Virus record (IMG/VR): IMGVR_UViG_3300030333_005399
Span: 1 to 64,000 of that record
Direction: 5' to 3' (one strand)
Length of the DNA: 64,000 bases
From: a virus
Of this stretch, positions 33,850 through 60,695 are shown piece by piece (positions within the stretch are counted from its first letter, which is position 1; the number at the start of each line of letters is the position of its first letter). A program made the position numbers and the translations under genes. The notes beneath the pieces are model-generated. The model saw nothing but the letters and a program-made list of their open reading frames with translations, was not told the DNA's origin and did not search any database.

Positions 33850-35001
33850 TTAAGCTTCCTCGCTTACGTCTTCGAACAGCTCGTCGGATGAACCGTCGTC
33901 AGTGTACTTTTGCAGTAGCTGCTTGACGAAGGTTCTCTCCGACTCGACTCCACCGGCCGCATCGAACTTGGGAAGTACTGCTACCTCGGCAGACTCAGTC
34001 AGTGTAAACCCGTCGTAGAGCAAGCTTGCTATCTCTACTGTGGATCGGGTACTTATATGGGTGGATAACCTGCCCTCTTCCGAACTAGACTCGCTGCGTG
34101 TAATGAATGCAAGCTCTGCCACGTTTTCGATTAATTCGGCTTTTACATTTGGGTATAACCCACTTAGTAAGCTTACTTCCTGTTCTTTGTTCAAGACGTC
34201 CATCTCAATCTGTGTGAACCTATCCAGTAGAGCTCTGTCGAGAACCCTTGTCGCGGTATACTCGTTACCGATGTTAGCAGTAGCGATAAAAGTAACGCCT
34301 TTTGCTACGTTAATAGTAGCCTGGCCGTCAGCCTCGTCTAACCTGAGATACCTCTGTCCTTCGTCTAGTACTGTCATAAGGATATTCCAAGCTTCAGGAT
34401 GAGCTCTTGATAACTCGTCGAGTAATATAACCGCGTTCTCAGTCTGGATAGCTTTAACGAAAAGCGCTTCTGAGAAGTAAGTGCCTTTCTCTTTGTTATA
34501 ATGTGTATTACCGATAAGGGTAGCACGTGGATCCTGTGTGGAACCTAAGTTAAAGTAGAACTCAGGTCTGTCGAGAGATTTAACTAGACTCTTTGCAGCC
34601 ATAGTCTTACCACACCCGGCGGGACCAGTCATCATAATGTTCTTACCTCTCATCGCAGATCTTACTAAGTACTTCCACTTAACCTCATTCATGATAAGAC
34701 TATTTGGCTTAAGCTTGTAAGAACTGTGTATATATGACAAAATGTCATTATGATCTTCGCTGACGTCTTCGGTAACCGTGACGACTACAGCTTGTTCATC
34801 CCACTCAGACTTAGTAGCAGGCCTCCAAAAGATACGCCCAGTGCTACCAGTCTTACGTACTGCATAACCAGTATCGGCTAAGATCTGTTTACGTTTATAT
34901 GACGGCATCTCCTTAGAGTAGTCAGTGCCATTTTGACATACTGCTCTGGTGCGACTGCCGACAGTTTCAATTTTTACTATTACATTTGTGTTTGAGTTCA
35001 T
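33850..35001 (-). CDS. cobS: AAA+ ATPase, CobS/MoxR-like
   Basis: A 383-residue AAA+ protein. Walker A GPAGCGKT is at residues 126-133, Walker B is NAVILLDELSRAHPEAWNIL, sensor 1 is FIATANIGNEY, and the arginine-finger region is VLDRALLDRFTQIEM. This is the phage CobS-like type, related to MoxR chaperones that work with a VWA-domain partner. That partner is the CobT-like gene 1.7 kb upstream (36741-38774). A role in cobalt chelation is not required; remodelling of a protein target is equally likely. It is led by promoter module E. Confidence 0.88.
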   Translation of the reverse strand: MNSNTNVIVKIETVGSRTRAVCQNGTDYSKEMPSYKRKQILADTGYAVRKTGSTGRIFWRPATKSEWDEQAVVVTVTEDVSEDHNDILSYIHSSYKLKPNSLIMNEVKWKYLVRSAMRGKNIMMTGPAGCGKTMAAKSLVKSLDRPEFYFNLGSTQDPRATLIGNTHYNKEKGTYFSEALFVKAIQTENAVILLDELSRAHPEAWNILMTVLDEGQRYLRLDEADGQATINVAKGVTFIATANIGNEYTATRVLDRALLDRFTQIEMDVLNKEQEVSLLSGLYPNVKAELIENVAELAFITRSESSSEEGRLSTHISTRSTVEIASLLYDGFTLTESAEVAVLPKFDAAGGVESERTFVKQLLQKYTDDGSSDELFEDVSEEA

Positions 35002-39775: not shown

Positions 39776-39816
39776 TTGTGAGACTAACATTAACCCCATT
39801 AAACCGGAGAAACAAA

Positions 39817-40149
39817 ATGAGGACATTAGGTTGTTTGTTATTGATGGGCATGGTGGCTGCCCAAAATCCTTCGGTCGAAGGAAGCCATCCACCCATACCA
39901 AAAAAACCATTTGAATTGAACGTATCAGATTTACCATCCACTCACCAATACTATAAAGGTGGTACCATACATGTTGAATTTATCGTTAATGAGAATGGCG
40001 ACGTTGAAGACGCTATCGTAGTAGACACTTTTGATGTACGTTACAGCACCGCTATTTTGGAGAAAGTAATGGATACTAAATATATTCCTGCTCATCAAAA
40101 TGGCATTCCAGTTAGAGTTAGATATAAGTTACCTATTGCGTTTAGATAA
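39817..40149 (+). CDS. Secreted TonB C-terminal-domain protein
   Basis: A 110-residue protein on the plus strand, from the ATG at 39817 (GGAG upstream). MRTLGCLLLMGMVAAQ is a signal peptide ending in AAQ. The mature part is a TonB_C domain: GGTIHVEFIVNENGDVEDAI, AILEKVMDTKYIPAHQNGIP, VRVRYKLPIAF (family pattern: G.v.v.f.v...G.v, .f.Pa..nG.pv...v..pi.F). Unlike cellular TonB it has no membrane anchor or Pro-rich spacer. It could compete for TonB-dependent receptors or Tol-type partners; this is inference. It is one of few plus-strand genes. Confidence 0.8.
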   Translation: MRTLGCLLLMGMVAAQNPSVEGSHPPIPKKPFELNVSDLPSTHQYYKGGTIHVEFIVNENGDVEDAIVVDTFDVRYSTAILEKVMDTKYIPAHQNGIPVRVRYKLPIAFR

Positions 40150-40192: not shown

Positions 40193-40450
40193 AGCTGGTT
40201 TCAAACCTAAATCACCTAAAAAATCTGCCCATCCGACTTCATCCTCTGGTGGTGCTTGTGGAATTCCTAACGAATCTAACAATTCCATATAGCTCATTTT
40301 CTTTGTTACTTCACTATGTAACCTCCCTAGTTTTATTAACATATCTTCATTTTCTTGAAATAATTCCATCATCATTTCTATTGCCCATATACACTGATTT
40401 AACTGATGACCAGTGATTAAAAACATATCGTCTTTTCTATAATACTTCAC
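40169..40450 (-). CDS. Small protein of unknown function
   Basis: A 93-residue helical protein (MFLITGHQLNQCIWAIEMMM) with a Lys/Gly end. It overlaps the tRNA-bearing gene by 14 bases. Function unknown. Confidence 0.55.
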   Translation of the reverse strand: MKYYRKDDMFLITGHQLNQCIWAIEMMMELFQENEDMLIKLGRLHSEVTKKMSYMELLDSLGIPQAPPEDEVGWADFLGDLGLKPADKKGGKK

Positions 40451-40982
40451 TCAACAATATCCTTTGCTGCTTTTTATTATGTGAATGTACAAATGTTAAA
40501 TGGTTGTTTATATTAGACTTGGTGATCAATGTGATTTCGTCTTTAGAATATAGATCATTAACATAGTCGACACTCTTATGATAACCATCTTTGATAAACA
40601 TTTTAATAGCAGTTCTCATAACATCTTTGATTGAGCGGGTGGACGGAATCGAACCGACAGCATCAGCTTGGAAGGCTGAGGTATTACCACTATACGACAC
40701 CCGCAGTTTTTTCTTTTCTTTGTTAGCGTAATAATCTTTTAACCATCTATCCCATGATCCACTACCTTTTGCAACCTTACTACCACCAACACTACGTCTA
40801 TCCATTCTACGTAGACTATTTTTAGTATCACTACTTACTGGTTGTACATAACCACCAGTCTTGTGTGGATATACGATGTGAGCTGAATACTTCTCCACAT
40901 CACTACATTTAGTACATTCTTTGTATCCTAAATGTATCCTTGTGTGTGGCATAAACTTACCACACGATTTGCAATTATTCAT
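40437..40982 (-). CDS. Zinc-ribbon protein whose reading frame spans a tRNA gene
   Basis: A 181-residue reading with a zinc ribbon at the N-terminus (CKSCGKFMPHTRIHLGYKEC then TKC) and a C-terminal helical part (SIKDVMRTAIKMFIKDGYHK). Residues about 93-117 (RVSYSGNTSAFQADAVGSIP) are encoded by a tRNA-Gly gene on the same strand, yet the frame stays open. Either the tRNA was inserted in frame, or two shorter proteins once flanked it. Processing of the tRNA by RNase P would cut this mRNA. It is led by promoter module G. Confidence 0.6.
   Translation of the reverse strand: MNNCKSCGKFMPHTRIHLGYKECTKCSDVEKYSAHIVYPHKTGGYVQPVSSDTKNSLRRMDRRSVGGSKVAKGSGSWDRWLKDYYANKEKKKLRVSYSGNTSAFQADAVGSIPSTRSIKDVMRTAIKMFIKDGYHKSVDYVNDLYSKDEITLITKSNINNHLTFVHSHNKKQQRILLSEVL
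40634..40704 (-). tRNA. tRNA-Gly (anticodon UCC)
   Basis: A 71-nt cloverleaf: acceptor GCGGGTG/CACCCGC, D-arm GTAT/ATAC with AGTGGTA loop, anticodon arm TCAGC-CTTCCAA-GCTGA (anticodon TCC), T-arm GTCGG-TTCGATT-CCGTC with one T-T mismatch. The 3' CCA is not encoded (TCA follows). It lies inside the frame of the 40437-40982 gene. Confidence 0.93.
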
Positions 40983-41490: not shown

Positions 41491-41648
41491 GATTTTTTAT
41501 TATACTCTTTGATCCTAACACTGAGAGGTTTTCTATTATTCATCCATTCAAGTATACGTTCTCTATTACTATTGGAATTCCATAGTTTGAGATTGCTCAA
41601 ATCATAAAACAAAACAGCATTTATCCAAAGAAATGCCTTATTCTTCAT
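41487..41648 (-). CDS. Small basic protein downstream of the MscS-like gene
   Basis: A 53-residue protein (MKNKAFLWINAVLFYDLSNL; RERILEWMNNRKPLSVRIKE). It overlaps the MscS-like stop by 11 bases in another frame. The composition looks coding. Function unknown. Confidence 0.55.
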   Translation of the reverse strand: MKNKAFLWINAVLFYDLSNLKLWNSNSNRERILEWMNNRKPLSVRIKEYNKKS

Positions 41649-41985
41649 TTTTAGATTGATATTTTGACAAATCTAGGTTCGGTAATGGTTTTTCTATTTT
41701 CAAGTCTTTTAACTTTGAATTAGCCACTACAAGTTTTGAACCACCTACTATTTGTCCGTTTACTACGTGGTATATGAAGAACACTGTCTTCCATAAACCG
41801 ACCCTTACTATACGACCAGGATCGCCATCAACCTCAACAACGTCATCTTCATTATAGTCGTTCCCTAGAAAGATCATTAATCCATCGACTGCTTCTCGAA
41901 TTGTATTTTGAAATAAAAGGAGGGCGATACCACTTACAAGTAACCATGAATATTCACCTACAACCTTTTGTAGAATCTGTTCCAT
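41638..41985 (-). CDS. Minimal MscS-like channel protein (TM3 plus beta domain)
   Basis: A 115-residue protein that matches only the heart of the mechanosensitive channel MscS. Residues about 15-42 (WLLVSGIALLLFQNTIREAV, DGLMIFLG) align with the pore-lining TM3 and its GLFILL end. DYNEDDVVEVDGDPGRIVRV, GLWKTVFF and KLVVANSKL follow the MscS beta domain (DxxxxGDxVEVDGxxGxVxxIGLxxT...vPNSkL). TM1, TM2 and the C-terminal vestibule are absent. It may assemble into host MscS, block it, or form a simple pore. All are inference. Confidence 0.78.
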   Translation of the reverse strand: MEQILQKVVGEYSWLLVSGIALLLFQNTIREAVDGLMIFLGNDYNEDDVVEVDGDPGRIVRVGLWKTVFFIYHVVNGQIVGGSKLVVANSKLKDLKIEKPLPNLDLSKYQSKNEE

Positions 41986-42002: not shown

Positions 42003-42593
42003 TTAATTATATTGTTCGATTTTCTCCGCTATCATAGATAAATATTGGTCAACCTTTTCTGTTGTTTGCTTTTTGGAAATTAGTTGATCTCTTTTTAGCG
42101 TTAACTTACCGTATGCTTTTTGTAACTCTAATTTTGTTAATCTTTTCATCGATCTGCGATAATATAAATGTTCTAGTGCTTCATCTTCTGCTTCAGCTCC
42201 TCGAACACCTGCAACTGCTGTTATCTGTTCTGTTTCACCGTATACATCTGTAACGTCTTGAATTTCTTCCCATACAGTATTTTCCCACATAGCATCCATA
42301 TCAAAATCAATGTTATCGTATTCTAATGACTCTAAACTATCTTGTATTGCTTTTTCTCTTTGTCTCTTTCTAGATCTTTCTGCAAATTCTCTGTCTAAAG
42401 TTACCGTTTGGATTGAATCACATTCTGATAACCACTTACCATAGTTTTTCCAGTTAGGTGTACCATTAGAATTCCTATATTCTGTATCATCACAGTCTTG
42501 TCCGTATACAAGACCTCTTTTTGTTTCTGATACTTGAGTGATGTCTTGAGAATGTATAACACTTACGAATAATAGAAGTGTTAAATATCTCAT
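42003..42593 (-). CDS. Secreted coiled-coil protein of unknown function
   Basis: A 196-residue protein with a short signal peptide (MRYLTLLLFVSVIHSQ, cleavage before Q) and a charged, helical mature part (REFAERSRKRQREKAIQDSL; KLELQKAYGKLTLKRDQLIS). Signal peptides ending in SQ are frequent in Gram-negative FCB-group bacteria. It overlaps the next envelope gene as ATGT/TATG by 4 bases. Confidence 0.6.
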   Translation of the reverse strand: MRYLTLLLFVSVIHSQDITQVSETKRGLVYGQDCDDTEYRNSNGTPNWKNYGKWLSECDSIQTVTLDREFAERSRKRQREKAIQDSLESLEYDNIDFDMDAMWENTVWEEIQDVTDVYGETEQITAVAGVRGAEAEDEALEHLYYRRSMKRLTKLELQKAYGKLTLKRDQLISKKQTTEKVDQYLSMIAEKIEQYN

Positions 42594-43042
42594 AATATGT
42601 CAACTTCTATATGGTAATTTCTAGTTGGAGACTTATCATAGTCTGTTCCTACTATGATCATGTATTCTCCGGGTGGGATTTGTGATGTCCATTCTGTGCG
42701 ATAGAGTTTCCAAACATAAGTTTCTATTCTATCTCTACCATCTCTGAATGGATCATACGATATTGGTTGTTGATGGACCATTTTACCTTTTGTGTTTATC
42801 ATGTACAAACGTGTGTTTTCTTTCTCAACCCTATATCTGATCTTTACTGCATCACCACCACTTATATCAGTAGTCTGCCAAGCTTGAAGAGGAAAGTAGT
42901 TAAAATCTTCCATCGATGGTTCACTAGAACGCAACATAGGCTCGTCATCTCCTGGTCTAAAGAAGATGACAAAGCCTAATACAAAGCATATTGCTGCAAT
43001 TAAACCTATTTCAATTAATTCTTCGTTTTGTGATTTGTACAT
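42590..43042 (-). CDS. Membrane-anchored protein with FlgD-Ig-like domain
   Basis: A 150-residue protein: N-terminal membrane helix (IEIGLIAAICFVLGFVIFF), then a beta domain resembling the FlgD Ig-like fold (AVKIRYRVEKENTRLYMINT, KGKMVHQQPI, and PPGEYMIIVGTDYD near the end). Domains of this type are common on exported proteins of FCB-group bacteria. There is no Shine-Dalgarno site; a TATAAATA late element lies only 4 bases before the ATG, so a leaderless message is possible. Confidence 0.6.
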   Translation of the reverse strand: MYKSQNEELIEIGLIAAICFVLGFVIFFRPGDDEPMLRSSEPSMEDFNYFPLQAWQTTDISGGDAVKIRYRVEKENTRLYMINTKGKMVHQQPISYDPFRDGRDRIETYVWKLYRTEWTSQIPPGEYMIIVGTDYDKSPTRNYHIEVDIL

Positions 43043-43054: not shown

Positions 43055-43060
43055 AATAAT

Positions 43061-43080
43061 AGGGGATAGAATTATCCCCT
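43061..43080 (-). terminator. Hairpin after the pilin gene
   Basis: AGGGGATA and TATCCCCT form an 8-bp stem with a 4-base loop, 6 bases after the pilin stop, followed on the minus strand by ATTATTT. Probably ends the pilin transcript; the U-run is weak. Confidence 0.65.
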
Positions 43081-43085
43081 ATCAA

Positions 43086-43523
43086 TTATTGTCCTTCGTA
43101 TATTTGAGGTACTTCAGCTAACTCGAATGCAAGAGAATCGTAAGTGTAATACCATATCTCATCATTTCTGCGTTGGTGATATAATCTACCTTCACCATCA
43201 GATTCGATATTGTATTGCCATTCACCATCAACATCTGGGATTCCCAATAACATGTTGATCTGAACGTTACGACTCCTGTTGATCACTTCGAGTGGATTAT
43301 ATGGCCACGCCTCAAGTCCTGTAGACATTAATGTCTCAGCTGCATGTTCCTCTAATCCTGCCCAAATCATATCAGCGAATGCTTTCTCAGCTGATGCCTC
43401 AGCGTTATCGACTGTGTCTTGATAACGTGGTATAGCGACTGCTGCTAAGATTCCAAGAATGATTGTGACCATCACTAGCTCAATCAATGTGAAACCTTTT
43501 GATGTATTCTTTAATATGTTCAT
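43086..43523 (-). CDS. Type IV prepilin-like protein
   Basis: A 145-residue type IV pilin or pseudopilin from the ATG at 43523, preceded by AGAAAGGAA. The leader MNILKNTSKG is followed by FTLIELVMVTIILGILAAVA, the prepilin peptidase motif with Gly at -1, Phe at +1 and Glu at +5. IPRYQDTVDNAEASAEKAFA continues as in PilA/GspG pilins. There is no C-terminal Cys pair. It would need host PilD and an assembly system. Its hairpin terminator and shared operon with another prepilin suggest acquisition as a unit. Confidence 0.88.
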   Translation of the reverse strand: MNILKNTSKGFTLIELVMVTIILGILAAVAIPRYQDTVDNAEASAEKAFADMIWAGLEEHAAETLMSTGLEAWPYNPLEVINRSRNVQINMLLGIPDVDGEWQYNIESDGEGRLYHQRRNDEIWYYTYDSLAFELAEVPQIYEGQ

Positions 43524-43557
43524 GTTCATTTCCTTTCTGGACTTTGTCCGTTGTAAA

Positions 43558-44226
43558 TTAAGGTACTAAAGTTTTATGTAATTTTGAAGGGTTTTCAGTG
43601 TCTATTACTACAAGAACTGGTGCTTGTGCATCTGTACCTGAACCACTTCCTGGTATGACCAAGTATGCGTAAGAACCATCCTGAAATGGTGACGATAAAC
43701 CGTTGTTACCAAAATCTTTCTTGAAGTCTAATGCTCCGACTTCTGAGTTTCCATCAAATGAAACAGATGATTCAAGACTCATCCAATCGTTTTGTAATGC
43801 ATCATCGTCATCAACCGATGGTGAGAAAACATAAACATACTCACTCAAGTCATCCGTATAAGATACTTTTTGTTCAAGAACAGTTTCGATGTACGCTTCA
43901 AGAGTTTCATCAGTTAGAGCTCCATCAGCTAAATCAACACCACCTACAGCGACGTCGTATTTTTCCTGTCCTGGAAATCTTCCTTTACCCTCTTCAGATA
44001 ATGTTTGGTTATAGTAGTTGTTAGCAACCGTCAAAATCTTATCAATGTTAGCAATAGTTTTCTTTTCCTTTGCACCAGCACCGACTGCTCCAAATTTTGG
44101 TGCGGCTGTTGTTGCAAGAGTTGCCATCATTGCAGTTGTAACTGCGAATTCAGCAAGAGAATTACCTCTTGTGCTTTTAATTGTTTTAAACATCTTTTTT
44201 ATGATGTTAAGTAGTGTTTTGAACAT
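43558..44226 (-). CDS. Prepilin-like protein, first gene of the pilin pair
   Basis: A 222-residue protein. A 21-residue basic leader ends TRG, followed by NSLAEFAVTTAMMATLATTA: Gly at -1 and Glu at +5, with a long hydrophobic helix, as in prepilins. The mature part (VANNYYNQTLSEEGKGRFPG; FQDGSYAYLVIPGSGSGTDA) looks like a pilin head of about 200 residues. A strong AAAGGAGAAC precedes the ATG. A sigma-54-type promoter lies 58-75 bases upstream. Its partner pilin follows after 34 bases. Confidence 0.78.
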   Translation of the reverse strand: MFKTLLNIIKKMFKTIKSTRGNSLAEFAVTTAMMATLATTAAPKFGAVGAGAKEKKTIANIDKILTVANNYYNQTLSEEGKGRFPGQEKYDVAVGGVDLADGALTDETLEAYIETVLEQKVSYTDDLSEYVYVFSPSVDDDDALQNDWMSLESSVSFDGNSEVGALDFKKDFGNNGLSSPFQDGSYAYLVIPGSGSGTDAQAPVLVVIDTENPSKLHKTLVP

Positions 44227-44284
44227 TTCAGTTCTCCTTTTCCTCTTTTGAGGCGTTTTTTAATAGTCTTCCTATAGGGTATAG

Positions 44285-44301
44285 TGCAAAAAGTATGCCA
44301 A
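44285..44301 (-). promoter_or_regulatory. Sigma-54 (RpoN) promoter before the pilin pair
   Basis: Minus strand TTGGCATACTTTTTGCA matches the consensus YTGGCACG-N4-TTGCW, with GG (44298-44299) and GC (44286-44287) exactly 10 bases apart. The expected RNA start is near 44274, giving a leader of about 48 bases with a strong ribosome site. Bacterial pilA genes are often RpoN/PilR-controlled. No enhancer site was identified. Confidence 0.75.
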
Positions 44302-44357: not shown

Positions 44358-44390
44358 CAAAAAAATAGGGACATTTTAGTCCCCATTTTT
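44358..44390 (-). terminator. Terminator after the 44448 oxygenase gene
   Basis: Minus strand GGGGAC-TAAAAT-GTCCCT forms a 6-bp stem (one G-U) followed by ATTTTTTT. A T-run also follows on the plus strand, so it may work both ways. It insulates the pilin unit. Confidence 0.82.
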
Positions 44391-44447
44391 CATAGTATAG
44401 TTTTGATACAGTAGAAATGTATCATTATTGAACAGTGTATTTAACTG

Positions 44448-45230
44448 TTACACATCTATTAAACCTTCTCCCTTCATCCAGTTTAGGTGATCATCCGACT
44501 CAGCAAATAGTGTAGAATGATTAGATGTGTCGCTACTTGGTTGTTTTGAATAGTAGTACGTAGCTAGTGATATTCTTTTCTTATCTTCTGGACATGCTAA
44601 CGGTGTTGGATGACCGTGCCATGAGTTTTCACTAGTACCAAATATTATCATCTTGTTAAAATCTGGTCTTATCTTACTGACACACTCTCCACCCCTTTTG
44701 CGTGGTTTATCCCATAACTCTAAGTGACCTTCCCACTCATCTTTCCAATCGTGATTCATGTAAAGTAATACATTGACTCGTCTCCAATATCCATTAAATT
44801 TTTGATCATCATGTATACTAAAATCACAGTGTACACCTAACTTTCCACCTCGTGGGATTATATGCACACCACCTCCCGCAAAAGAATCATCACCTATCAA
44901 ATCTTCTATTCCAGTTATGTGTCTAAGGAAACCTATAAACTCGTCACTGTTCAAATAATTTAAAACTCCATGGATTTCTGGATCTCCTGAAACGTTGTTT
45001 AATCCTCGTTTACCTTCCAAATCATTCCAAAATTCAGATGCACCCCATCTTTTTGAAGGGTTTGGTTCACTCATAGCATAATCCCATGCTTTTTGGATCT
45101 TGTCATAGTCAGCTATGTTATCCAGTACTGCACCATCTAACATACCATCAATCTGCCAGTACCGAAATGGTTTTTCAGTCATCCATGACTCGTGATTGTC
45201 TTTCCAATACTGTATATCTTTACTAATCAT
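44448..45230 (-). CDS. 2-oxoglutarate/Fe(II)-dependent oxygenase
   Basis: A 260-residue oxygenase similar to 29505-30197. KLGVHCDFSIHDD gives H-x-D, SWHGHPTPL gives the distal His and KKRISLATYYY the 2OG-binding Arg. VNVLLYMNHDWKDEWEGHLE is the characteristic strand pair. It overlaps the upstream gene as ATGA and ends at a bidirectional terminator. Substrate unknown. Confidence 0.86.
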   Translation of the reverse strand: MISKDIQYWKDNHESWMTEKPFRYWQIDGMLDGAVLDNIADYDKIQKAWDYAMSEPNPSKRWGASEFWNDLEGKRGLNNVSGDPEIHGVLNYLNSDEFIGFLRHITGIEDLIGDDSFAGGGVHIIPRGGKLGVHCDFSIHDDQKFNGYWRRVNVLLYMNHDWKDEWEGHLELWDKPRKRGGECVSKIRPDFNKMIIFGTSENSWHGHPTPLACPEDKKRISLATYYYSKQPSSDTSNHSTLFAESDDHLNWMKGEGLIDV

Positions 45231-47173: not shown

Positions 47174-47181
47174 TATTTATA
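47174..47181 (-). promoter_or_regulatory. T4-type late promoter element TATAAATA
   Basis: Minus-strand TATAAATA just after the stop of the 47177 glycosyltransferase gene. The RNA would start near 47168, a 24-base leader before the cysteine-rich peptide, and would run on into the nuclease gene. Confidence 0.6.
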
Positions 47182-47947
47182 CGCTTTTATCATTAGTTTT
47201 AGGGTCATGTTTTATGTAATCTCCCCACTTCCACTTAGCGTACTCATGACACTCTATCTCTGTCAACCTATTTGCTTCCTCCTGTTGTGTAGACTTCTGA
47301 GCTAACGACACGAAATGGTAGAAGTGAGATCGATATGATCTCATCATTCTTAAACCTGATAGCTTAGCCTTTAAAAAGAAATCCCAATCGGCGACTAACC
47401 CAGCTTGAGAAGGATAGTTTGTATCCCATCCTCCAAGATATAAAAATGCGTTCTTAGAAATTAACACGGGAAATGTTGAACCTGTAACATCAGTTTCTTT
47501 CTCAGATATACTGTCTTCGTAATCCCAAAATTTTTCCAAATCAAATGTTTTTGGATCTCGTCCTAAATCTTTTATGTGAAACTGTTCAAATATAGAATCG
47601 TACGGTTCTATATGATTTGGTGCTACAACCCAATTTTCATTACAATATAAAACTAACTTCTTATCCCAATCTCTTGGAAATACGTTATCGTCATTAACAA
47701 TTAAAACGTATGGTTGTGTTGCAGAACTAACACCGATATTGATTGCATGTCCTGTACCGTAGTTTTCATCTAACACGATATACTTTACCGTTTCGTATTT
47801 GTCAAGTACTTCTTTATTTATATCATACGTACCATCTACGACTACTATAATTTCTTCGTAGTTAGTCTTCATTCCTTCTACTGCAGATCGTAAACAAAGA
47901 TCTAAAGCTTCTGGTTCCTTATATGTTGGTATTATTACAGAAATCAT
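47177..47947 (-). CDS. Family 2 (GT-A) glycosyltransferase
   Basis: About 256 residues from the ATG at 47947, which overlaps the upstream stop as ATGA and has TTGGAG before it. MISVIIPTYKEPEALDLCLR is the GT2 start, VVVDGTYD and VLDENYGTGHAINIGVSSA the donor site, and LIVNDDNVFP the DxD-type motif. VADWDFFLKAKLSGLRMM resembles the acceptor-side acidic residue. Transfers a sugar to a glycan of the virion or host surface. Confidence 0.88.
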   Translation of the reverse strand: MISVIIPTYKEPEALDLCLRSAVEGMKTNYEEIIVVVDGTYDINKEVLDKYETVKYIVLDENYGTGHAINIGVSSATQPYVLIVNDDNVFPRDWDKKLVLYCNENWVVAPNHIEPYDSIFEQFHIKDLGRDPKTFDLEKFWDYEDSISEKETDVTGSTFPVLISKNAFLYLGGWDTNYPSQAGLVADWDFFLKAKLSGLRMMRSYRSHFYHFVSLAQKSTQQEEANRLTEIECHEYAKWKWGDYIKHDPKTNDKSV

Positions 47948-48636
47948 TGTGCACTCCAATCAGTTAGTGGAGACAACCATGCCGTTTCTCCATGAGTGGA
48001 AAAACCTGGAATCGATGATATTAGTAAATGTCCATTCTCTCTTAAATCTAAAAACATTTTAAAATCTTCTGGATATGTTGCAGTTGTCCACTTTCTTAGT
48101 ATAGGTTCTGTCTCTCTCAACACATCCACTCTTGCAGCAAATGTCATTGTTGTAGAGTTCGTTACTTTCCAATGACATGTCTTCGTTAAATAAACTCTTG
48201 TATCTTCAGCACCACCTTCACAGTATGGATTACCACCTTTACTTGGATCTAAGTATTTGTCTGGATGATCGTACAATGCAACAAAAGATGCTCCGAGATC
48301 TATACCTTCTTGAAGTACTTCTCGAGCTTGTCCTTTGTGGAGATAATCGTTTTCTAAAAAGTAAATATAATCTTCACCTTTAAACTGATCCAATGCCATA
48401 TCTAAAGCAATGTTAAATGTACCTGCGCCATGACCAACCTGCACTTTAGTTATACTACTCTTTGGAAACTCTTTACGTATCATCTTCATAGTTCTTGGTC
48501 CACAACCATCTGCAATTACATGAATGTTACTAGAACCAAACCTGAGTGATGCGTTAAATAAACATTTTTCGTTATTTATATAGTCTGGTTTTTCCTTTGC
48601 GTAACCACCATCAGATATTCTATATATTACTTTCAT
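47944..48636 (-). CDS. Glycosyltransferase-like protein (GT-A)
   Basis: A 230-residue protein. HVIADGCGPRTMKMIRKEF and VGHGAGTFNIALDMALDQF follow GT-A order, and YIYFLENDYLHKGQAREVL has an ENDY in place of DxD. EDFKMFLDLRENG could be the late acidic site. It overlaps both neighbours. Donor and acceptor are unknown. Confidence 0.72.
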   Translation of the reverse strand: MKVIYRISDGGYAKEKPDYINNEKCLFNASLRFGSSNIHVIADGCGPRTMKMIRKEFPKSSITKVQVGHGAGTFNIALDMALDQFKGEDYIYFLENDYLHKGQAREVLQEGIDLGASFVALYDHPDKYLDPSKGGNPYCEGGAEDTRVYLTKTCHWKVTNSTTMTFAARVDVLRETEPILRKWTTATYPEDFKMFLDLRENGHLLISSIPGFSTHGETAWLSPLTDWSAQ

Positions 48637-49768
48637 TGTATGTCCTCAATAATTCTTCTATGTATATGTTTTTAGCACAAAAATCTATTCCACCAGCAAG
48701 TGTTGTCTTTATAAATTCTCTATCTTGTTCGAAACTGTTAACTATTTCTATCATGTCGACTTCAGTTGGATCAACCAAATAATTGTAATCGTAAAAATTA
48801 CCGACCTGTCCAGTTCCTTCAATTACTATCGTTCTCTTACCAAACTGTATAGGTTTAAACGCCAACGTTGATAATGCGCTCACCACGACATTCGAATTTG
48901 CAACTAATGTGTTTATATCATCGCTATCTACAACAACCTTTCCATTTGGAATCAAATCCATTACGTACTCAATATTCTTTTCTCTGTTTGGATCGTCTAA
49001 TCGTGACTTAATTTTTGTGACTATTGGCAATCCATATTCTTGTGACATCTGTTCTAATTGCGTATCTCTCACAAACTGTTCATCTAATGCTCTAGAAAAT
49101 GGATGAGATCTGTTACCTAAAAAATTAGGTATAACCAATATGTGTTTGTCTACATATCCGATACTAGTTTGATGTTCGTAATATAAATCAAACATTAAAT
49201 CGTTAGCTGGTATTCCACCAACTAAAACATCGTTTGTATCGAAAACTTGCGAGAATATTTGTTTCTCTTTTTCCCCAAATACAAATATTTTGTCAAATGA
49301 TTTCTTCATTCCATTATGACCGAATATTCCAGATTCGTTGAACTCTTGATTTCCATGGTGATTACCAATAACCAAACATCCGTTTTCTTTTGCCTTTCTA
49401 TACAACGCTGGCATCTTTAGTTCTGGCATTTCCTTACAGTCATCAAATATTATTAATGGAAAATCTTGTACATCAACCCAATCATTTAAGTCATCTGCAA
49501 ATCTATCCCCGTGAAACCTAAATCCTGGACCATTTATGATATTCTTACAGTATACTTTGTACTTTTCCATATCTACAACTCTAGGATCTGAATCTCCATT
49601 CCACGGAGTCTTTGAACTATACTCACCTATCCTGAAGATTGTAATCTCAAATGTTTTAGATAATTTTGGAATTATTGGTAATATCTTTTCGCATACTCTT
49701 GGGTTGCTGAGTATCAATAAACATTTAGAGTATGGAGGATTTTTGAATACAAACTTTTTATCCGACAT
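48620..49768 (-). CDS. GT-B-type glycosyl/glycerophosphotransferase-like protein
   Basis: A 382-residue protein with two Rossmann-like halves. LVIGNHHGNQEFN, KIFVFGEKEKQIFSQVF, VLVGGIPANDLMF, VIPNFLGNRSHPF and NSNVVVSALSTLAFKPIQFG match the pattern of capsule-export/CDP-glycerol glycerophosphotransferase-like enzymes. It may add glycerol-phosphate or sugar-phosphate units. It overlaps genes on both sides. Confidence 0.65.
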   Translation of the reverse strand: MSDKKFVFKNPPYSKCLLILSNPRVCEKILPIIPKLSKTFEITIFRIGEYSSKTPWNGDSDPRVVDMEKYKVYCKNIINGPGFRFHGDRFADDLNDWVDVQDFPLIIFDDCKEMPELKMPALYRKAKENGCLVIGNHHGNQEFNESGIFGHNGMKKSFDKIFVFGEKEKQIFSQVFDTNDVLVGGIPANDLMFDLYYEHQTSIGYVDKHILVIPNFLGNRSHPFSRALDEQFVRDTQLEQMSQEYGLPIVTKIKSRLDDPNREKNIEYVMDLIPNGKVVVDSDDINTLVANSNVVVSALSTLAFKPIQFGKRTIVIEGTGQVGNFYDYNYLVDPTEVDMIEIVNSFEQDREFIKTTLAGGIDFCAKNIYIEELLRTYNESNI

Positions 49769-50468
49769 GTCTCATCGCCCTCGGTAGTGTAGCAAACTCA
49801 TCAGTTTTCTCTAAATTATTTTGTGGTTGATGAGCTATAAATGTTTTATTAATTCTGTTAACCTTAATTTCTGGCATCTTCCATAGAGAATAACAAAAAG
49901 ATATTTGATCTTCTGTGTTCCACTTAGCCGTCTCTTCAAACCACATCTCATTAAATTTTACAACGTTGTCATTGTTTCGTCTAAACAATATTCCATTCTC
50001 GTACAAGCCACGTCCTTCTGCGTAACCATCTTTTTTGTATTGTTCTGCTTGATTTATGACCATCTCAGCAGTATCTCTCTTTGTTCCTGGTCTCTGAAGA
50101 GCTGCTTGAGTTTCTTGATATATGCAAGTCCTATCACTGTGTGAATGTACAGCTACATCATGGTTTTCTAAATACTTCTCGGCTAACGATACTGGATCGT
50201 ATGCGAAATATATCTGTGCGTCCATCCAAAGCCATGCATCATAATCTGGTAACACTCTATGTGGAGCAGTTTTTATTTTTCTAGCTGACCATCTACCATC
50301 TCTCCAAACATCTGTCTTTCTTACATCCCAAAAATCTTCACTTATGTAGTCACTGTTTGTGTAGCAAATGTAATCTACACCATCCTTATCGTGTTCATAA
50401 TGAATTATGTCACCGTATAATTTGTTTGGATCATCAGTGTATAAAGCAGTAACAACTGCTAGCTTCAT
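49758..50468 (-). CDS. Glycosyltransferase-like protein (DUF616/TOD1-type)
   Basis: About 236 residues from the ATG at 50468, which overlaps the upstream stop as ATGA with GGAGGGG before it. KLAVVTALYTDDPNKLYGDI is the GT-A start; KTAPHRVLPDYDAWLWMDAQ holds the D-x-D-like site (WMDAQI). AVHSHSDRTCIYQETQAALQ is typical of the DUF616 group. Donor unknown. Confidence 0.7.
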   Translation of the reverse strand: MKLAVVTALYTDDPNKLYGDIIHYEHDKDGVDYICYTNSDYISEDFWDVRKTDVWRDGRWSARKIKTAPHRVLPDYDAWLWMDAQIYFAYDPVSLAEKYLENHDVAVHSHSDRTCIYQETQAALQRPGTKRDTAEMVINQAEQYKKDGYAEGRGLYENGILFRRNNDNVVKFNEMWFEETAKWNTEDQISFCYSLWKMPEIKVNRINKTFIAHQPQNNLEKTDEFATLPRAMRHVG

Positions 50469-51112
50469 GACATTCCCCTCCATGTTGCTCCGTTATTGGT
50501 GTAATAGTGATGAGCTCTAAGTTCTGGCCAATATAAGAATTCCTCTCCTCTACCAACCATATCTATTGCCCAATACCTATCTTCCTTACCCGAATATGAT
50601 TCTGGCATAGGATACTGCATTAATGTATCACGTCTATAAAAGCAAAAAGCATTATGTAGAAACAACCTATCTTCTATTTTGGAATGCATGTTAACTACGT
50701 CTTTTTCTCCGAAGTGTGACCAAATATAACGAGGTGTAATTTTCTTTCCCATGTAAATCGGAATTTGCTTTCCAAACACTGCACAATATGCATTTAGTTT
50801 CTTATAAAAGTTCCAACCAACTAAAGCCTTTATTTGACAATGAGCAGATAAAACTAAACATACTTCTTGATTGGCTTCCTTTACACCCATGTTTATAGAT
50901 CTTCCAGGGGTGTACTTGTCTTTTTCAATTGATATTATTTTAATATCTGCTCTGTCAACGAATAAATTTACTACTCCTAACGTATCATCAGTTGATTCAT
51001 TGTCTACAACAATTATTTCTGGATCGTTTAGATGATCCAAACATGATTGTATTGCAAAACCTATATGATCTTGTTCGTTCTTAGAACGTATTATAACCGA
51101 TACATTATCCAT
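50465..51112 (-). CDS. Family 2 (GT-A) glycosyltransferase
   Basis: A 215-residue protein. VSVIIRSKNEQDHIGFAIQS and IIVVDNESTDDTLGVVNLF are classic GT2; TPGRSINMGVKEANQEVCLV with LSAHCQI replaces the DxD region (SAHC, seen in some GT2 enzymes of NeuB-linked clusters). It follows the NeuB-like gene with an 8-base overlap, so transfer of a nonulosonic-acid-type sugar is one possibility. Confidence 0.85.
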   Translation of the reverse strand: MDNVSVIIRSKNEQDHIGFAIQSCLDHLNDPEIIVVDNESTDDTLGVVNLFVDRADIKIISIEKDKYTPGRSINMGVKEANQEVCLVLSAHCQIKALVGWNFYKKLNAYCAVFGKQIPIYMGKKITPRYIWSHFGEKDVVNMHSKIEDRLFLHNAFCFYRRDTLMQYPMPESYSGKEDRYWAIDMVGRGEEFLYWPELRAHHYYTNNGATWRGMS

Positions 51113-51905
51113 CGAATCTCCCAGTCATTATGTCTCTTGCTTCCTGTTCACACGGTAAATAATTATCACCATGACTGTAATTCATTTTTTCATACATGTC
51201 AATATAATCCCTTAACTTTCTTAGATCTTCTGGTAAAATGCTAAACTTATTATCCCTACCAGGTAAGGATTGATCTATCGTAAAATGTTTTTCTATTACG
51301 GTTGGATTGTATCCTAATGCTACCTTTGAACCTTCTATTCCTGGTGTATGATCGCTGTACCCTACTTCTGGAAAATATTTCCTTAGTGAGGCAATACGTG
51401 GTAGATTACAGTTTTCATAGTCTAATGGATACGCAGATATACAATGCAATATTACAAACTTTCCAACATCTAAACTTCTTAACGTATCTCGTATTTCATT
51501 AACTGAAGACGTACCAGTCGATAAGTATATTTTATCAAAGTTATAGTAACAGTAAGTTATGAGTTCCACGTTACGTGATTCGAAGCTAGCTATTTTTACA
51601 GTGTCGACTCCTATACTAGCTAGTAGTTTTGCATCTTCAATACTAAACACTGATGAGAAGAACGGTATACCGTATGATTCACTAAAATTCTTTAATGATA
51701 TATGGTCGTCTTTAGATAATTCTGCTTTCTTGTATATTTCTAACCTACCGTCATCGTCCCATGGTCCATGTTTAAGTCTTTGAACCGACCACGTTTGAAA
51801 CTTTACAAAGTCAGCACCATTATCCTTTGCCTTTTGTATCATTTGTTTCGCTAAAGCTAAATCACCCATGTGATTCCAACCTATTTCTGCTATTATCTTT
51901 GTCAT
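51105..51905 (-). CDS. neuB: NeuB-like nonulosonic acid synthase without SAF domain
   Basis: A 266-residue TIM-barrel enzyme. IIAEIGWNHMGDLALAKQMI, GADFVKFQTWSV, IPFFSSVFSIEDAKLLASIG, VDTVKIASFESRN, YLSTGTSSVNEI, ILHCISAYP and VGYSDHTPGIEGSKVALGYN, then VIEKHFTIDQSLPGRDNKFS are NeuB landmarks. NeuB condenses PEP with a 6-deoxy- or N-acetyl-mannosamine-type sugar. Usual enzymes are about 345 residues with a C-terminal antifreeze-like (SAF) domain; this one lacks it. Confidence 0.88.
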   Translation of the reverse strand: MTKIIAEIGWNHMGDLALAKQMIQKAKDNGADFVKFQTWSVQRLKHGPWDDDGRLEIYKKAELSKDDHISLKNFSESYGIPFFSSVFSIEDAKLLASIGVDTVKIASFESRNVELITYCYYNFDKIYLSTGTSSVNEIRDTLRSLDVGKFVILHCISAYPLDYENCNLPRIASLRKYFPEVGYSDHTPGIEGSKVALGYNPTVIEKHFTIDQSLPGRDNKFSILPEDLRKLRDYIDMYEKMNYSHGDNYLPCEQEARDIMTGRFDG

Positions 51906-52447
51906 TGTATTGCCTCTAAATCTTCTTTGTAATGTATGTCTACTGCTGAATCTTTAATGATACCCATTCTTTTCGAAACTGTTCCGTTTACTAAGTCATC
52001 GTATTTGAATATTCTGACAGATCCACTTCTTTTATATTTTTCATTCACTGTAACCAGGTCGTCGTATTTATTCGATACCATATAATCCAAACATTCGTCT
52101 AATGTGTTACTACGATTTGGGTTATCTGGTTGGAGACACACTACATAATCGTAATACGTATCTGAATTTTTTACGACAGCTAAATATACTTCTACTACCT
52201 CAACATCTCCACAAAGCGAAGAGTCCCGATAATGATGATACACTCCACGTGGTATCATCGAAGCTAATTTTGCACTTTCGGTAGATACAACTATAGTATT
52301 TAAATGACGTGTGTCCTTTGCGTAATCTATACTATGATGAAACAGAGGTTTGCCATCTAATTGCTGAATGTTCTTTTCTTTTAGTCTCGTGGAATCTAAC
52401 TTAGCTGGTATGATCGTTAATATTTTATAACGTCGTTTGCTTTTCAT
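51902..52447 (-). CDS. neuA: NeuA-like CMP-sugar cytidylyltransferase
   Basis: A 181-residue protein. LTIIPAKLDSTRLKEKNIQQ, then LDGKPLFHHSIDYA, and IVVSTESAKLASM match the nucleotidyltransferase start of CMP-N-acetylneuraminate synthetases (IPARxxSxRLxxKN, GKPL). VVCLQPDNPNRSNTLDECLD replaces the usual LQPTSPLR. It activates the NeuB product with CTP. At 181 residues it is shorter than the usual ~230. ATGA overlap with neuB. Confidence 0.82.
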   Translation of the reverse strand: MKSKRRYKILTIIPAKLDSTRLKEKNIQQLDGKPLFHHSIDYAKDTRHLNTIVVSTESAKLASMIPRGVYHHYRDSSLCGDVEVVEVYLAVVKNSDTYYDYVVCLQPDNPNRSNTLDECLDYMVSNKYDDLVTVNEKYKRSGSVRIFKYDDLVNGTVSKRMGIIKDSAVDIHYKEDLEAIQ

Positions 52448-53114
52448 GAAATTGTCCTCTTTTAGATTTGTCTATCCATAAATCGTGTTCGCTCATCGAT
52501 TCGTATTCTAATTCTACACAGTTTGGTATTATATCCCTTTGATAGTTCTTCCACATAGAATAGAAAGCATTTAGGTAGTATGAGTTTTTATCGACTACCT
52601 TATCAAATACTTCTCCAGCTTTTGAATCTAATCTACAGTAATGATAACGTTCTACGTCAAACATTGTTTCCTGTAATATCCAATCACTTAATCTACCATT
52701 CTTTCTGTACACTGATTTTATAATATCTGACCACTTTCGATGCATAAAAATAATCATATCATCTTCAGTTGCCAAACTGTGTATATGTGGTGTCATAGCT
52801 GGAGCTTGTACAACAATTCTATCCTTATTTCGTATTATATCTGTAAACTTATCAACATCAATAACATCAAATGCATCTTCATCTACCACTTCCCATCCCA
52901 TGGTCCATGCGAATGCTTTAGATGTAAATGTAGTTCCACTTCTCTGTGGACCAACAATGATTATTCTTTTGCAATCCTTTATTGACCACCTCTCATGATA
53001 AACCATAGGATCCATTTCTATTTGAAACTGGTCTATCTCTTCAAATGCTTTTTGTATAGTTTCCTCATCTAACCATACTTTTGGTGGTAATTCTAGAGTT
53101 TGTTTATTGCCCAT
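52425..53114 (-). CDS. Sulfotransferase-like P-loop protein
   Basis: A 229-residue protein. RIIIVGPQRSGTTFTSKAFA is the PAPS-binding 5'-phosphosulfate loop (PQRSGTT), and IIFMHRKWSDIIKSVYRKNG resembles the 3'-phosphate-binding region. It may transfer sulfate to the glycan made in this cluster. A kinase-like P-loop function cannot be excluded. Overlaps both neighbours. Confidence 0.65.
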   Translation of the reverse strand: MGNKQTLELPPKVWLDEETIQKAFEEIDQFQIEMDPMVYHERWSIKDCKRIIIVGPQRSGTTFTSKAFAWTMGWEVVDEDAFDVIDVDKFTDIIRNKDRIVVQAPAMTPHIHSLATEDDMIIFMHRKWSDIIKSVYRKNGRLSDWILQETMFDVERYHYCRLDSKAGEVFDKVVDKNSYYLNAFYSMWKNYQRDIIPNCVELEYESMSEHDLWIDKSKRGQFHEKQTTL

Positions 53115-54043
53115 GTGTATGCCTTTTCTTGTCCTTCAAATGTCATACCTCCTATGTGAGGCGTTATTATAACGTTATGTCCATCTCTAGCTGCGTTAAC
53201 AATTGGTGAATCGTTTATGTCTCCAAACTCATCTTCTAAAACATCAGTTCCATAACCTAAAATTTTACCAGATTTTAAACCATCTACAACATCTGGTTCT
53301 TTTACTATTTCTCCTCTCGAAGTATTAATCAAATAAAAACCTTTTTTTGATTTGTTAATCAATTCTTTGTTTACCATTCCTATTGTTGTATCATTAACAT
53401 GAACGTGTAAACTTATAACATCACAATCCGTAAACATTTTTTCTAACGTACAGTTGTTATAATGCAACGTTGGATCATTCATTATGTCAGGATCTCTATC
53501 ATAAATATATACGTCAATCCCGAAAGCATGAAAATAATTAGCCATCATTGAACCCAATCTTCCATAACCTATAATTCCAGCCTTCATTCCTCTCATCTGT
53601 CTTCCAACATATGGTGTGTAGCTCCATTCACCTTTTATCACAGATTGAGATGACTTTGTAATGTTTCTGAGTAAGTCACATGTTAACCCAAACGCCAACT
53701 CTGCAGTTGAAGGCAAATGTTGTAATAAATCATGATCGTTAGTTAAGGATAAAACGTTTATGTTCCATAATTTACACCAATCCATGTCTATGTGATTCAA
53801 CCCTGTAGAACATGTTAATATTGTTTTTATTCCATTACTTAATATTCTTGAACCTATCTTAAATTGCTGTTCATTGGGATTGCATATAAGTGTGTCTATT
53901 TTTGCTCTTTGTACAAAATTTACAACGTTCCCTTCAGTCACTTTACCTTGTAAATAGTACACATTATTGTCACCTAATTTTTTATCAATGAGCTTCTTTA
54001 CGTTTGGTAAGTGATCAACTGGTGTTATAACTGCTGCTCTCAT
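53093..54043 (-). CDS. D-2-hydroxyacid dehydrogenase (SerA-like)
   Basis: About 316 residues from the ATG at 54043 (ATGA overlap with the upstream gene, GAGG before it). The NAD-binding core is AGIIGYGRLGSMMANYFHAF with VYIYDRDPD; NTSRGEIVKEPDVVDGLKSG supplies the catalytic Arg, DVLEDEFGDIND the Glu, and ITPHIGGMTFEGQEKAYTW the His. It reduces or oxidises a 2-keto/2-hydroxy acid. Its presence among sugar genes suggests formation of an acid side chain on the glycan. Confidence 0.85.
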   Translation of the reverse strand: MRAAVITPVDHLPNVKKLIDKKLGDNNVYYLQGKVTEGNVVNFVQRAKIDTLICNPNEQQFKIGSRILSNGIKTILTCSTGLNHIDMDWCKLWNINVLSLTNDHDLLQHLPSTAELAFGLTCDLLRNITKSSQSVIKGEWSYTPYVGRQMRGMKAGIIGYGRLGSMMANYFHAFGIDVYIYDRDPDIMNDPTLHYNNCTLEKMFTDCDVISLHVHVNDTTIGMVNKELINKSKKGFYLINTSRGEIVKEPDVVDGLKSGKILGYGTDVLEDEFGDINDSPIVNAARDGHNVIITPHIGGMTFEGQEKAYTWAINKL

Positions 54044-55008
54044 GTCCATGCCTCAATTATTTCGTCCATAACATCCTCTGTTGTCTTAGTTACTTTGTAG
54101 TTTAATAATTTCTTAGCTTTGTCTAAATTTGCAAACCTAACCCTTATTTCTGGGTATCCTTTAAATCGTTCTTCCATCGGCATATATTTTATGTCACCTG
54201 AATATCGTATTCTGTCAGTAATATATTCAGCTATATACTTTATTGTTGTTTGTTGATCGGTTCCTAAATTTATTATTTCTCCATTTGTTCGAACACTATT
54301 ATCCATCACTGCATAAAAACCTTTTACAACATCTTCAGCATGAGATATAGATCTCGTTTGTAGTCCATCGTCAAATATTGTTATTTCTTCACCTTTAATT
54401 GCTTGTACTGTAAACAATGCAACATGCATTCCCAAATAACTCTTAGCCGATCTCTTCGATGCACAACCAAATACACGTATTATTGTTGCATTCAATTTTC
54501 GTTTATTAACTAAGTTCAAAATGTATTGTTCACTATGTAGTTTTGACATTGCATAAGAATATCTTTCTATATTTGAAGGACCAATTGCTATCGGATCTGA
54601 TTCTAAAAATGTATCGTGATTTCCGTATACATCAGAAGTGGATGCAAATACTAAATGAGCATTGTTTTTTATTGCTAAATCTACAACTCGTTTTGTCATT
54701 CTAAAATTTACATCTAAAATATTTGTTTCATCTATATCATTCCATAATTTTTTTACTGACGCAAAATGATATATGAAATCTATATCAGTTATATCACAAC
54801 CACACGAAACTTCACACATACAACTATTCGATAATCTTGTAAAATCAGTTGAACAATCGGATTCAATAAATTCTACGTTTTCATTAATGTTATCGATGTT
54901 ACCATAAGAAAGGTCATCAACTGCAATTACTTCATGACCATTACTTACTAGTAAGTCACACATGTGGCTACCAATTAATCCTGCTGCTCCAGTTACCAAT
55001 ACTTTCAT
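54040..55008 (-). CDS. NAD-dependent sugar epimerase/dehydratase (SDR)
   Basis: About 322 residues from the ATG at 55008, preceded by GAG. MKVLVTGAAGLIGSHMCDLL is the GxxGxxG NAD site, ASTSDVYG and YAMSKLHSEQYI (YxxxK) the catalytic residues. An unusual Cys-rich insert (SNSCMCEVSCGCDITDIDFI) lies near residue 65-85. The likely role is epimerisation or dehydration of an NDP-sugar. Confidence 0.88.
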   Translation of the reverse strand: MKVLVTGAAGLIGSHMCDLLVSNGHEVIAVDDLSYGNIDNINENVEFIESDCSTDFTRLSNSCMCEVSCGCDITDIDFIYHFASVKKLWNDIDETNILDVNFRMTKRVVDLAIKNNAHLVFASTSDVYGNHDTFLESDPIAIGPSNIERYSYAMSKLHSEQYILNLVNKRKLNATIIRVFGCASKRSAKSYLGMHVALFTVQAIKGEEITIFDDGLQTRSISHAEDVVKGFYAVMDNSVRTNGEIINLGTDQQTTIKYIAEYITDRIRYSGDIKYMPMEERFKGYPEIRVRFANLDKAKKLLNYKVTKTTEDVMDEIIEAWT

Positions 55009-55009
55009 T

Positions 55010-55987
55010 TTAATACTCTCCAAAGTCGTACGTTTTTAATGGTCCTTTATCGTAATCGTGGTGATAGTAATCGTAAATTAACGTTCCTTCATAATTGTGC
55101 TTTATAGCTTCAAATGTTCCGTATACATTCTCATAGTCCCAACCCCATCTCTCTTTCCATGCAGTAAAATGATCACCATAACTACCGAAATGGTATGAGT
55201 CTCCCTGTTGTGCTCCAACTGCACTATTATAATTCATTCCATATTTCTCTTTAAGCCACTGATTGTTATAACAATACAATCTTGGAAGCTGAACTATTGG
55301 AAAGTTATTATAGTTCAATTGCATTGCTACATCTGGATACCAAATGTGAAATTGATAGTCTTCACTAGCTATGACTTTATCCTTCCATACATTTACATTT
55401 AACCCTACCACCGGCCACATTGCGAATTCACATATAAAGGGATTTTTAAATAGTTCAGGTTTATTTCTAACCGTTAAATTTTTTCCTGTTGCCAACCATC
55501 TTCCACTATTATCTGATATACCTAGGTGTCCAAACCCAATGCCACCAATTGGCATCTCACCCCTTTGGAATAGTTCCCAAGCATTTCCAGCATAATCACC
55601 CTTATCCAATATATTAAACCCTACTCCACCAAATTCGTCTAACTGTCCAGTCTCTATTAATGCTGATAATCTAGAAAAGAAGTTCTTACTAACTGGATAA
55701 ATGTCATGTTGAAAACAAATAATCCACTTACAATTTGGTCTATTATCAGATATAAAATCAACAACAGTATCTGTGGCCATTTGTACACCTCTGGATTTAT
55801 TCTCTAAGAATACAACACCAGCAGTTTCACACATTTGTTTACCCTTTTGTACTTCCTCTTCTGATGACTTATCGTCTACATTTATTAGTTCAAACCCTTC
55901 TCTATCTATATTCTTAAACACTTCACCTTCTAACATGTCATAATTGTTTCTAGATGAAACGTATATTATAATGTTTTCATTGTTCAT
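55010..55987 (-). CDS. Glycosyltransferase-like protein (GT-A)
   Basis: A 325-residue protein. IIIYVSSRNNYDMLEGEVFK and ELINVDDKSSEEEVQKGKQM give a GT-A-like start, WIICFQHDIYPVSKNFFSRL the acidic metal site (QHDIYP), and GVGFNILDKGDY follows. It overlaps the upstream oxidoreductase gene as ATGA-like junction. No precise family. Confidence 0.68.
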   Translation of the reverse strand: MNNENIIIYVSSRNNYDMLEGEVFKNIDREGFELINVDDKSSEEEVQKGKQMCETAGVVFLENKSRGVQMATDTVVDFISDNRPNCKWIICFQHDIYPVSKNFFSRLSALIETGQLDEFGGVGFNILDKGDYAGNAWELFQRGEMPIGGIGFGHLGISDNSGRWLATGKNLTVRNKPELFKNPFICEFAMWPVVGLNVNVWKDKVIASEDYQFHIWYPDVAMQLNYNNFPIVQLPRLYCYNNQWLKEKYGMNYNSAVGAQQGDSYHFGSYGDHFTAWKERWGWDYENVYGTFEAIKHNYEGTLIYDYYHHDYDKGPLKTYDFGEY

Positions 55988-57892: not shown

Positions 57893-58593
57893 CAGATTTG
57901 TATCCTATCTATCATCTTTCTAAATCTTTTCATCAGTCTCATTTCGTGCTGATGTGACATTCTCCTGTGTGCTTCAGATTTTGATGTTGATAATTCGTGT
58001 GTAAGATCAGCTGTTTTAATATCTTCTAGTGCATCGACTAACATATTGATTTCCATATCGTACTGTCTTCGAGCTACACTGTGAAATGTATCCCACGAAT
58101 AGAGTGGAACAAACTCTCTTTTTATCAGAATACCAGCATCACACTCATCTGATATTATGTGTGAAGTAACACCAATAGGTTTACCATCATATATTGCCCA
58201 TTTTAAAGAGTCCAACCCTCTAACGTATGGTAAGTAAGCTGGATGTGAATTTATAACTCTGTTTGTATCGCACAGCTCTTTTGGTAATATTCCTGCTCCA
58301 CCTATTAATAAATGTATATTACTATACACATCCAGTTGAGTAATAACAGTTTCTATGGGTATTGGACTGTAAACATATCCTAATCGTTTACATAAATCTT
58401 CAGTACTAACGTTAATTGGTTCAAAATGTCTGTGTGGTATTAGCGATTTAAAATTCTTTCTTTCTACCCACGGTGTAGCATAAACTATTACATCATCGTA
58501 ACCTTTTGTTTTTAGATTCAACAATATGTCTTGTGTTTTCTTATGCACAATACCGTCTGGTGTATCATACGTTAAAACAAATGTATCAAGCAT
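57892..58593 (-). CDS. Sugar N-formyltransferase-like protein
   Basis: A 233-residue protein of the formyltransferase fold. LLIGGAGILPKELCDTNRVI, NSHPAYLPYVRGLDSLKWAI and GVTSHIISDECDAGILIKRE supply the catalytic N-H-D set (N of NSHP, H of SHII, D of DAG). Such enzymes use N10-formyl-tetrahydrofolate to formylate amino sugars or tRNA. Here, among sugar genes, N-formylation of an amino sugar is most likely. Overlaps the SDR gene by 8 bases. Confidence 0.8.
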   Translation of the reverse strand: MLDTFVLTYDTPDGIVHKKTQDILLNLKTKGYDDVIVYATPWVERKNFKSLIPHRHFEPINVSTEDLCKRLGYVYSPIPIETVITQLDVYSNIHLLIGGAGILPKELCDTNRVINSHPAYLPYVRGLDSLKWAIYDGKPIGVTSHIISDECDAGILIKREFVPLYSWDTFHSVARRQYDMEINMLVDALEDIKTADLTHELSTSKSEAHRRMSHQHEMRLMKRFRKMIDRIQI

Positions 58594-60078: not shown

Positions 60079-60093
60079 TTATTATATATATTG

Positions 60094-60687: not shown

Positions 60688-60695
60688 ATAACCTC

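Follow-up and report, generated by a model that had tools for sequence, protein, structure and literature searches.

A candidate host-type sigma-54 promoter with enhancer-like repeats in front of pilin genes in marine phages

The usual expectation for a lytic phage is that it runs transcription by a programme of its own. The closest precedent for phage genes that obey a regulator of the host by way of a DNA site of host type, also in marine T4-like phages, is provided by the Pho boxes of cyanophages: the host's two-component system PhoBR controls pstS of P-SSM2 and genes of S-PM2d (PMC10976474, citing Zeng and Chisholm 2012). These are sites for the PhoB activator, they precede nutrient and other genes, and they are backed by EMSA and expression data. 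The case described here differs in that phages of SAR406 type appear to carry a complete sigma-54 promoter with enhancer repeats for pilin genes, and in that the evidence comes from sequence only. On the bacterial side, the pilA promoters of Pseudomonas and Myxococcus are controlled by RpoN and PilR (PMC6211767). The present locus shares with them a -24/-12 element near a major pilin gene and an NtrC-family activator encoded in the pil locus, but the promoter lies on phage genomes and the probable activator is without a conserved phospho-Asp. We found no precedent for a phage sigma-54 promoter and enhancer before pilins in the open-access literature, to which the search was confined and which cannot prove absence.

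The element and the pilin genes behind it

The window is the whole 64,000-nucleotide stretch of viral DNA that was analysed. The features around the element are the following, in the order in which they would be met on the minus strand.

44446-44452 (no strand assigned): enhancer-like repeat TGTTACA/TGTAACA, which reaches into the end of an oxygenase gene and lies some 150 nt upstream of the -24 element
44404-44424 (no strand assigned): imperfect enhancer-like palindrome TGATACA-N7-TGTATCA, found by a palindrome search; variant of the TGTWACA common to relatives
44360-44392 (minus): hairpin with a 13-bp stem and a T-run, tail TATTTTTTT, found by folding; between enhancer and promoter
44285-44301 (minus): candidate core sigma-54 promoter TTGGCATACTTTTTGCA, GG at -25/-24 and GC at -13/-12
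43558-44226 (minus): pilin 1, 222 aa, class III signal RG/NSLAEF, homologous to Marinimicrobia pilins (45-49% identity)
43086-43529 (minus): pilin 2, 147 aa, N-methylation motif PF07963; gene order as in the bacterial pil operon
43059-43082 (no strand assigned): hairpin of 10-12 bp after pilin 2, found by folding, with a poor T-run on the minus strand
42590-43042 (minus): membrane-anchored protein downstream of the pilins, present in most relatives (37-78% identity)
42003-42593 (minus): secreted protein, next gene of the cassette, present in most relatives (51-72% identity)

A first-pass annotation of the window had reported a sigma-54 promoter with GG-N10-GC spacing and nearly all consensus bases, and this description is borne out. 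A pattern search re-located TTGGCATACTTTTTGCA on the minus strand (44301-44285), with GG at 44299-44298, exactly ten intervening nucleotides and GC at 44287-44286, and the element passed a membership test for the sigma-54 form (GG-N10-GC with TGGCAY and TTGCW). According to a ChIP-seq study of E. coli sigma-54, the important positions of the 17-mer are 3, 4, 14, 15 and 16 (PMC4591121); the window element agrees at 5/5 of these, and at position 16 most phage relatives have T in place of C. The element lies in a gap of 221 nt between a 2OG-Fe(II) oxygenase gene (44448-45230) and the ATG of pilin 1 (44226), 75 nt before the latter. In the absence of transcript data, the start of transcription is inferred to fall near 44274, which would give a leader of about 48 nt; a Shine-Dalgarno sequence, AAGGAGAAC, stands ahead of the ATG.

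Judged by a class III signal, a Gly cleavage site, Glu5 and a hydrophobic N-terminal helix, the two genes encode type IV pilins, pilin 1 by its signal and pilin 2 by PF07963. The signal of pilin 1, G followed after the cleavage site by NSLAEFAVTTAMMATLA, is nearly invariant in phage and bacteria. Phage-borne pilin genes have been classed as morons (PHROG 3433), and pilin 2 falls in that family (E 3.8e-7). Pilin 1 matched no PHROG, no Pfam pilin and nothing in 50,697 GenBank phage records; its only structural hints are weak PDB matches to the N-termini of MshA and geopilin (E 0.07). The hairpin after pilin 2 could possibly be an attenuator or the end of a two-gene unit, a role that remains uncertain because of its poor T-run. 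In most relatives the order pilin 1, pilin 2, membrane-anchored protein, secreted protein is kept and the upstream genes differ. The cassette probably moved between phages as a unit, since phages with 28-31% identity in their DNA polymerases have pilins that are 75-89% identical. In a pilin tree, 15 of the 16 phage pilins form one group and the remaining one (L048) falls among bacteria, which suggests that phages may have acquired pilins at least twice. Since the phage genes examined included no recognisable pilB, pilC or other gene for pilus assembly, these pilins would need the machine of the host to be assembled. Two further genes recur near the cassette in relatives, one for a TonB C-terminal-like protein (39778-40149, plus strand) and one for a small MscS-beta-domain-like protein (41638-41985, minus strand).

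The first-pass annotation had set this promoter against a T4-like phage that rewires transcription through its own factors. A T4-like assignment is tentative: the record has a gp6-like baseplate wedge protein, PhoH, polynucleotide kinase, thymidylate synthase, a CobS/CobT-like pair and a family-B DNA polymerase, recognised by its YGDTDS motif; capsid and terminase were not seen in this partial phage record. The contrast with T4's own programme is not shown, because phrog_234, the family of the T4 late sigma factor gp55, gave no match in the window record and one weak match in 16 records, most of which are fragments. A PF00158 match at 34333-34665 was rejected as a sigma-54 activator: it is a CobS-type AAA+ protein, and the same search also finds matches in archaea. 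Elsewhere, glycosyltransferase and sugar genes follow one another over a long stretch (47177-63864); NeuB, a CMP-sugar synthetase-like gene, UDP-GlcNAc 2-epimerase and an epimerase are among them. A tRNA-Gly(tcc) (40633-40704, minus strand) lies inside an ORF (40437-40982) that has a relative in another phage, and one of the two may be spurious. The record ends in a host-like C-terminal part of a TonB-dependent receptor (PF00593; L002:9032-9829, minus strand), which could be a receptor carried by the phage or an assembly joint.

Conservation of the candidate promoter and repeats in phages and bacteria

A scan of viral contigs recovered about 50 marine phage loci that encode relatives of pilin 1, yielding 37 distinct upstream regions, the window included. 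Loss of the element in relatives that keep the genes would have spoken against the promoter, and its conservation holds: a recognisable element is found at the corresponding place in 35/37 regions, in the midst of surrounding DNA that diverges, and only two (L034 and L045) have nothing recognisable there. GG-N10-G[T/C] is present in 30/37, with AG-N10-GT in 3/37 and GG-N10-TC in 2/37. Among 28 phage representatives less than 85% identical, the element carries 1.59 bits per column, compared with 0.61 for the 100 nt upstream and 0.32 for the leader downstream. The usual phage form is TTGGTAY-N5-TTGTA, with GT at -13/-12 in 29/37 regions; GC at this position is found in the window alone. The word 'canonical', which had been applied to this promoter, therefore suits the window member better than the family, most of which reads GG-N10-GT. 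A TATATA(GG) stretch directly downstream of the element is common to most phage copies.

A search for enhancer sites upstream, which had been proposed as a check, disclosed a repeat common to phage and bacterial upstream regions; that a protein binds it is inferred. After TGTAACA/TGTTACA had been spotted by inspection, all 7-mers were enumerated 60-180 nt upstream of the core, an interval picked after the sequences had been viewed, although the fold enrichment leaves little room for bias. In phages this word ranked top (26/28 loci, 82-fold above the rest of the same DNA), and in bacteria it ranked second (9/16 loci, 26-fold above background) to ATGTAAC (8/16), which overlaps TGTAACA. Copies numbered 50 in phages against 2.5 in shuffles, and 16 in bacteria against 0.6. 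Activator-type repeats upstream, one of the marks of a sigma-54 promoter, are thus supplied by the TGTWACA enrichment, without binding data. The window has one exact TGTWACA plus imperfect copies, and we infer that the palindrome at 44404-44424 belongs to the enhancer. The two relatives without a core also lack repeats near the gene; another relative, L044, has the core and no exact TGTWACA within 420 nt. The hairpin at 44360-44392 is probably the terminator of the upstream oxygenase gene, and in many phage relatives similar intrinsic terminators of the upstream gene lie between repeats and promoter. An IHF-like TATCAACACATAA occurs about 48 nt upstream of the core in L018, L020, L022, L027 and L036; it is not general, being limited to these five phage relatives, where its place is fixed.

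When bacterial genomes were searched with the pilin profile, 16 loci came up, most of them under the label Marinimicrobia/Neomarinimicrobiota (SAR406); the few records that bear other or vague labels are likely misassigned bins. GG[C/T]A-N8-G[C/T] precedes the ATG by 46-67 nt in 16/16 of these loci, typically as TTGGCAYAGAN-TTGC and with GT in 5/16. A strict sigma-54 pattern occurred 0-3 times per genome in the 16 bacterial genomes, and its reversed control 0 times in all of them. Most of these matches stand before pilin paralogues that share the N-terminal signature, usually with TGTWACA upstream; a few precede Hsp20-like, MetK-like or secreted-protein genes (names that rest on a reading of N-termini) or nothing. 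With so few matches, mostly before pilin genes, the RpoN regulon of these SAR406 bacteria may be very small and devoted mainly to pilins. RpoN is encoded in 13 of the 16 genomes, which are incomplete, and strong sigma-54 activator domains number one or two in each of nine genomes searched. Both RpoN and a GAFTGA-type activator, as the sigma-54 reading calls for, are present in these bacteria, whose assignment as hosts is inferred: SAR406 is the host that the sequences point to, and the true host is not pinned down because the homologous bacterial pilins are just ~45-49% identical.

In one bacterial locus (L077) the order is pilB, activator, pilC, pilin 1, pilin 2, minor pilins, and in a second (L091) the same activator adjoins pilB and pilC.

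L077, 2129-3586: sigma-54 activator of the pil operon, with a degenerate receiver
L091, 968-2437: the same activator, likewise with a degenerate receiver

These proteins have a sigma-54 interaction (AAA+) domain with a GSFTGA or GAFTGA loop and a Fis-type HTH, as PilR does, but they do not have the receiver with a phospho-accepting Asp that would make them PilR; by hand alignment the phospho-Asp position holds E or A. Classical PilS-PilR phosphorylation is for this reason doubtful, and no kinase was seen next to the activator in the two operons read. Of the earlier suggestion that the unit answers PilR-type signals, what remains is an NtrC-family activator in the pil operon that is likely PilR-like by place and domains; it has not been shown to be PilR or to answer a kinase. 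A second activator of ~408 aa, without a receiver, is present in most genomes searched.

Other readings of the element

The alternative that survives best, and an unlikely one, is that TTTGGTAY-N5-TTGTA-NN-ATATAGG is a phage-specific promoter or another factor's site, read by a phage or sigma-70-type factor and merely resembling a sigma-54 site. Most phage copies do deviate at -12 (GT), and they share the TATATA(GG) directly downstream. However, a general phage promoter would not be nearly confined to one gene: across the 1.87 Mb of 28 phage records, TTGGYAYN5TTGYA matched 29 times, and 22 of these matches stand immediately before the pilin gene; the reversed pattern gave 2 in the same records. 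The bacterial pilin promoters moreover have the same layout, GT included in 5 of 16, and the spacing fits no sigma-70 promoter. A sigma-70 promoter at the site was itself rejected, as the scan gave background level alone.

Still less probable to us is a silent relic, a promoter that arrived with captured pilin genes and is unused by the phage. In its favour, the cassette has a clear host character and has been shared horizontally (DNA polymerases ~30%, pilins 75-89% identical), but core and upstream repeats persist while the surrounding DNA diverges, and the same element of phage type is found in L048, apparently a second and separate acquisition. We find scant reason to see a repressor operator in its place: GGTACA-N5-TGTACC is a perfect 17-bp palindrome in L004, L005, L007 and L008, but the window and most relatives are not palindromic (TTGTAG, TTGTAT, TTGCAC) and keep GG-N10-G[T/C]. 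With its palindrome not conserved, the operator was rejected.

A weight matrix trained solely on the 16 bacterial pilin promoters was run over both strands of the 71,829-base phage record, the background scan that had been called for. Equal matches are few, and TTGGCATACTTTTTGCA ranks first of 143,626 positions, at 16.3 bits compared with 14.8 for the next. When the 20-column matrix was used, an equally good match turned up somewhere in 7 of 60 Markov genomes, so the motif alone is suggestive and not conclusive; position and conservation, not the motif, decide that the element is real. A chance match in AT-rich DNA, which those seven genomes would allow, can be dismissed for practical purposes given the exact position, the conservation in phage relatives and before bacterial homologues, and the internal control offered by the runner-up (11620-11639), which relatives of the gene downstream of it do not share.

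A pilin cassette proposed to be under host control

We are left with considerable confidence, transcript and binding data being absent, in a functional RpoN promoter on a pilin cassette that derives from SAR406 together with its control region, is read by a host activator, is co-expressed with host pili and yields pilins assembled by the host. The claim that the pilin unit keeps cellular control through a sigma-54-type promoter is supported by the conserved core, the shared repeats and the same element in bacteria, and further by RpoN and an NtrC-family activator in the bacteria with homologous pilins. On this proposal, the phage lineage would have acquired the cassette, control region included, from a Marinimicrobia (SAR406) type IV pilus operon. 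Host RpoN-RNA polymerase would wait at the -24/-12 element as a closed complex. An NtrC-family activator of the host, most likely that encoded between pilB and pilC, would bind TGTAACA/TGTTACA 90-175 nt upstream and open the promoter by looping across the terminator of the upstream gene, which would be tolerable in that place since a looping activator would pass over it. Binding of a SAR406 activator to the repeats and a start of transcription at TTGGCATACTTTTTGCA are both inferences. With host RpoN and the host pil activator driving the promoter, production of the phage pilins would coincide with that of the cell's own pili, and the host pilus machine would assemble them. Which protein reads the module and what the pilins do for the phage are likewise inferred; our guess is that the pili of the infected cell are kept or altered, one possible gain being protection from superinfection by phages that depend on pili.

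We give an even chance to a broader proposal, in which SAR406 phages share a mobile, self-contained cassette (enhancer, sigma-54 promoter, two pilins and two accessory envelope genes) that moves between distant phages and is run by the pilus circuit of the host, with pilins that remodel host pili and a bacterial RpoN regulon made up mainly of pilins.

As far as can be read from DNA, a complete sigma-54 module of host type has been retained alongside the phage pilins. This suggests that the pilus regulator of the infected cell, not the phage programme, times phage pilin production. If true, this would be the first sigma-54/enhancer module described in SAR406 phages, and dozens of marine phages would appear to keep an activator-dependent host switch that is unable to fire without a specific host protein. 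It would extend the cyanophage Pho-box idea to sigma-54 and offer a testable case of phages that read the state of the host before expressing a gene. TGTAACA would be a candidate DNA recognition site for an unstudied activator. In SAR406, an ocean lineage that is abundant and uncultured, the regulation of pili would become approachable from sequence.
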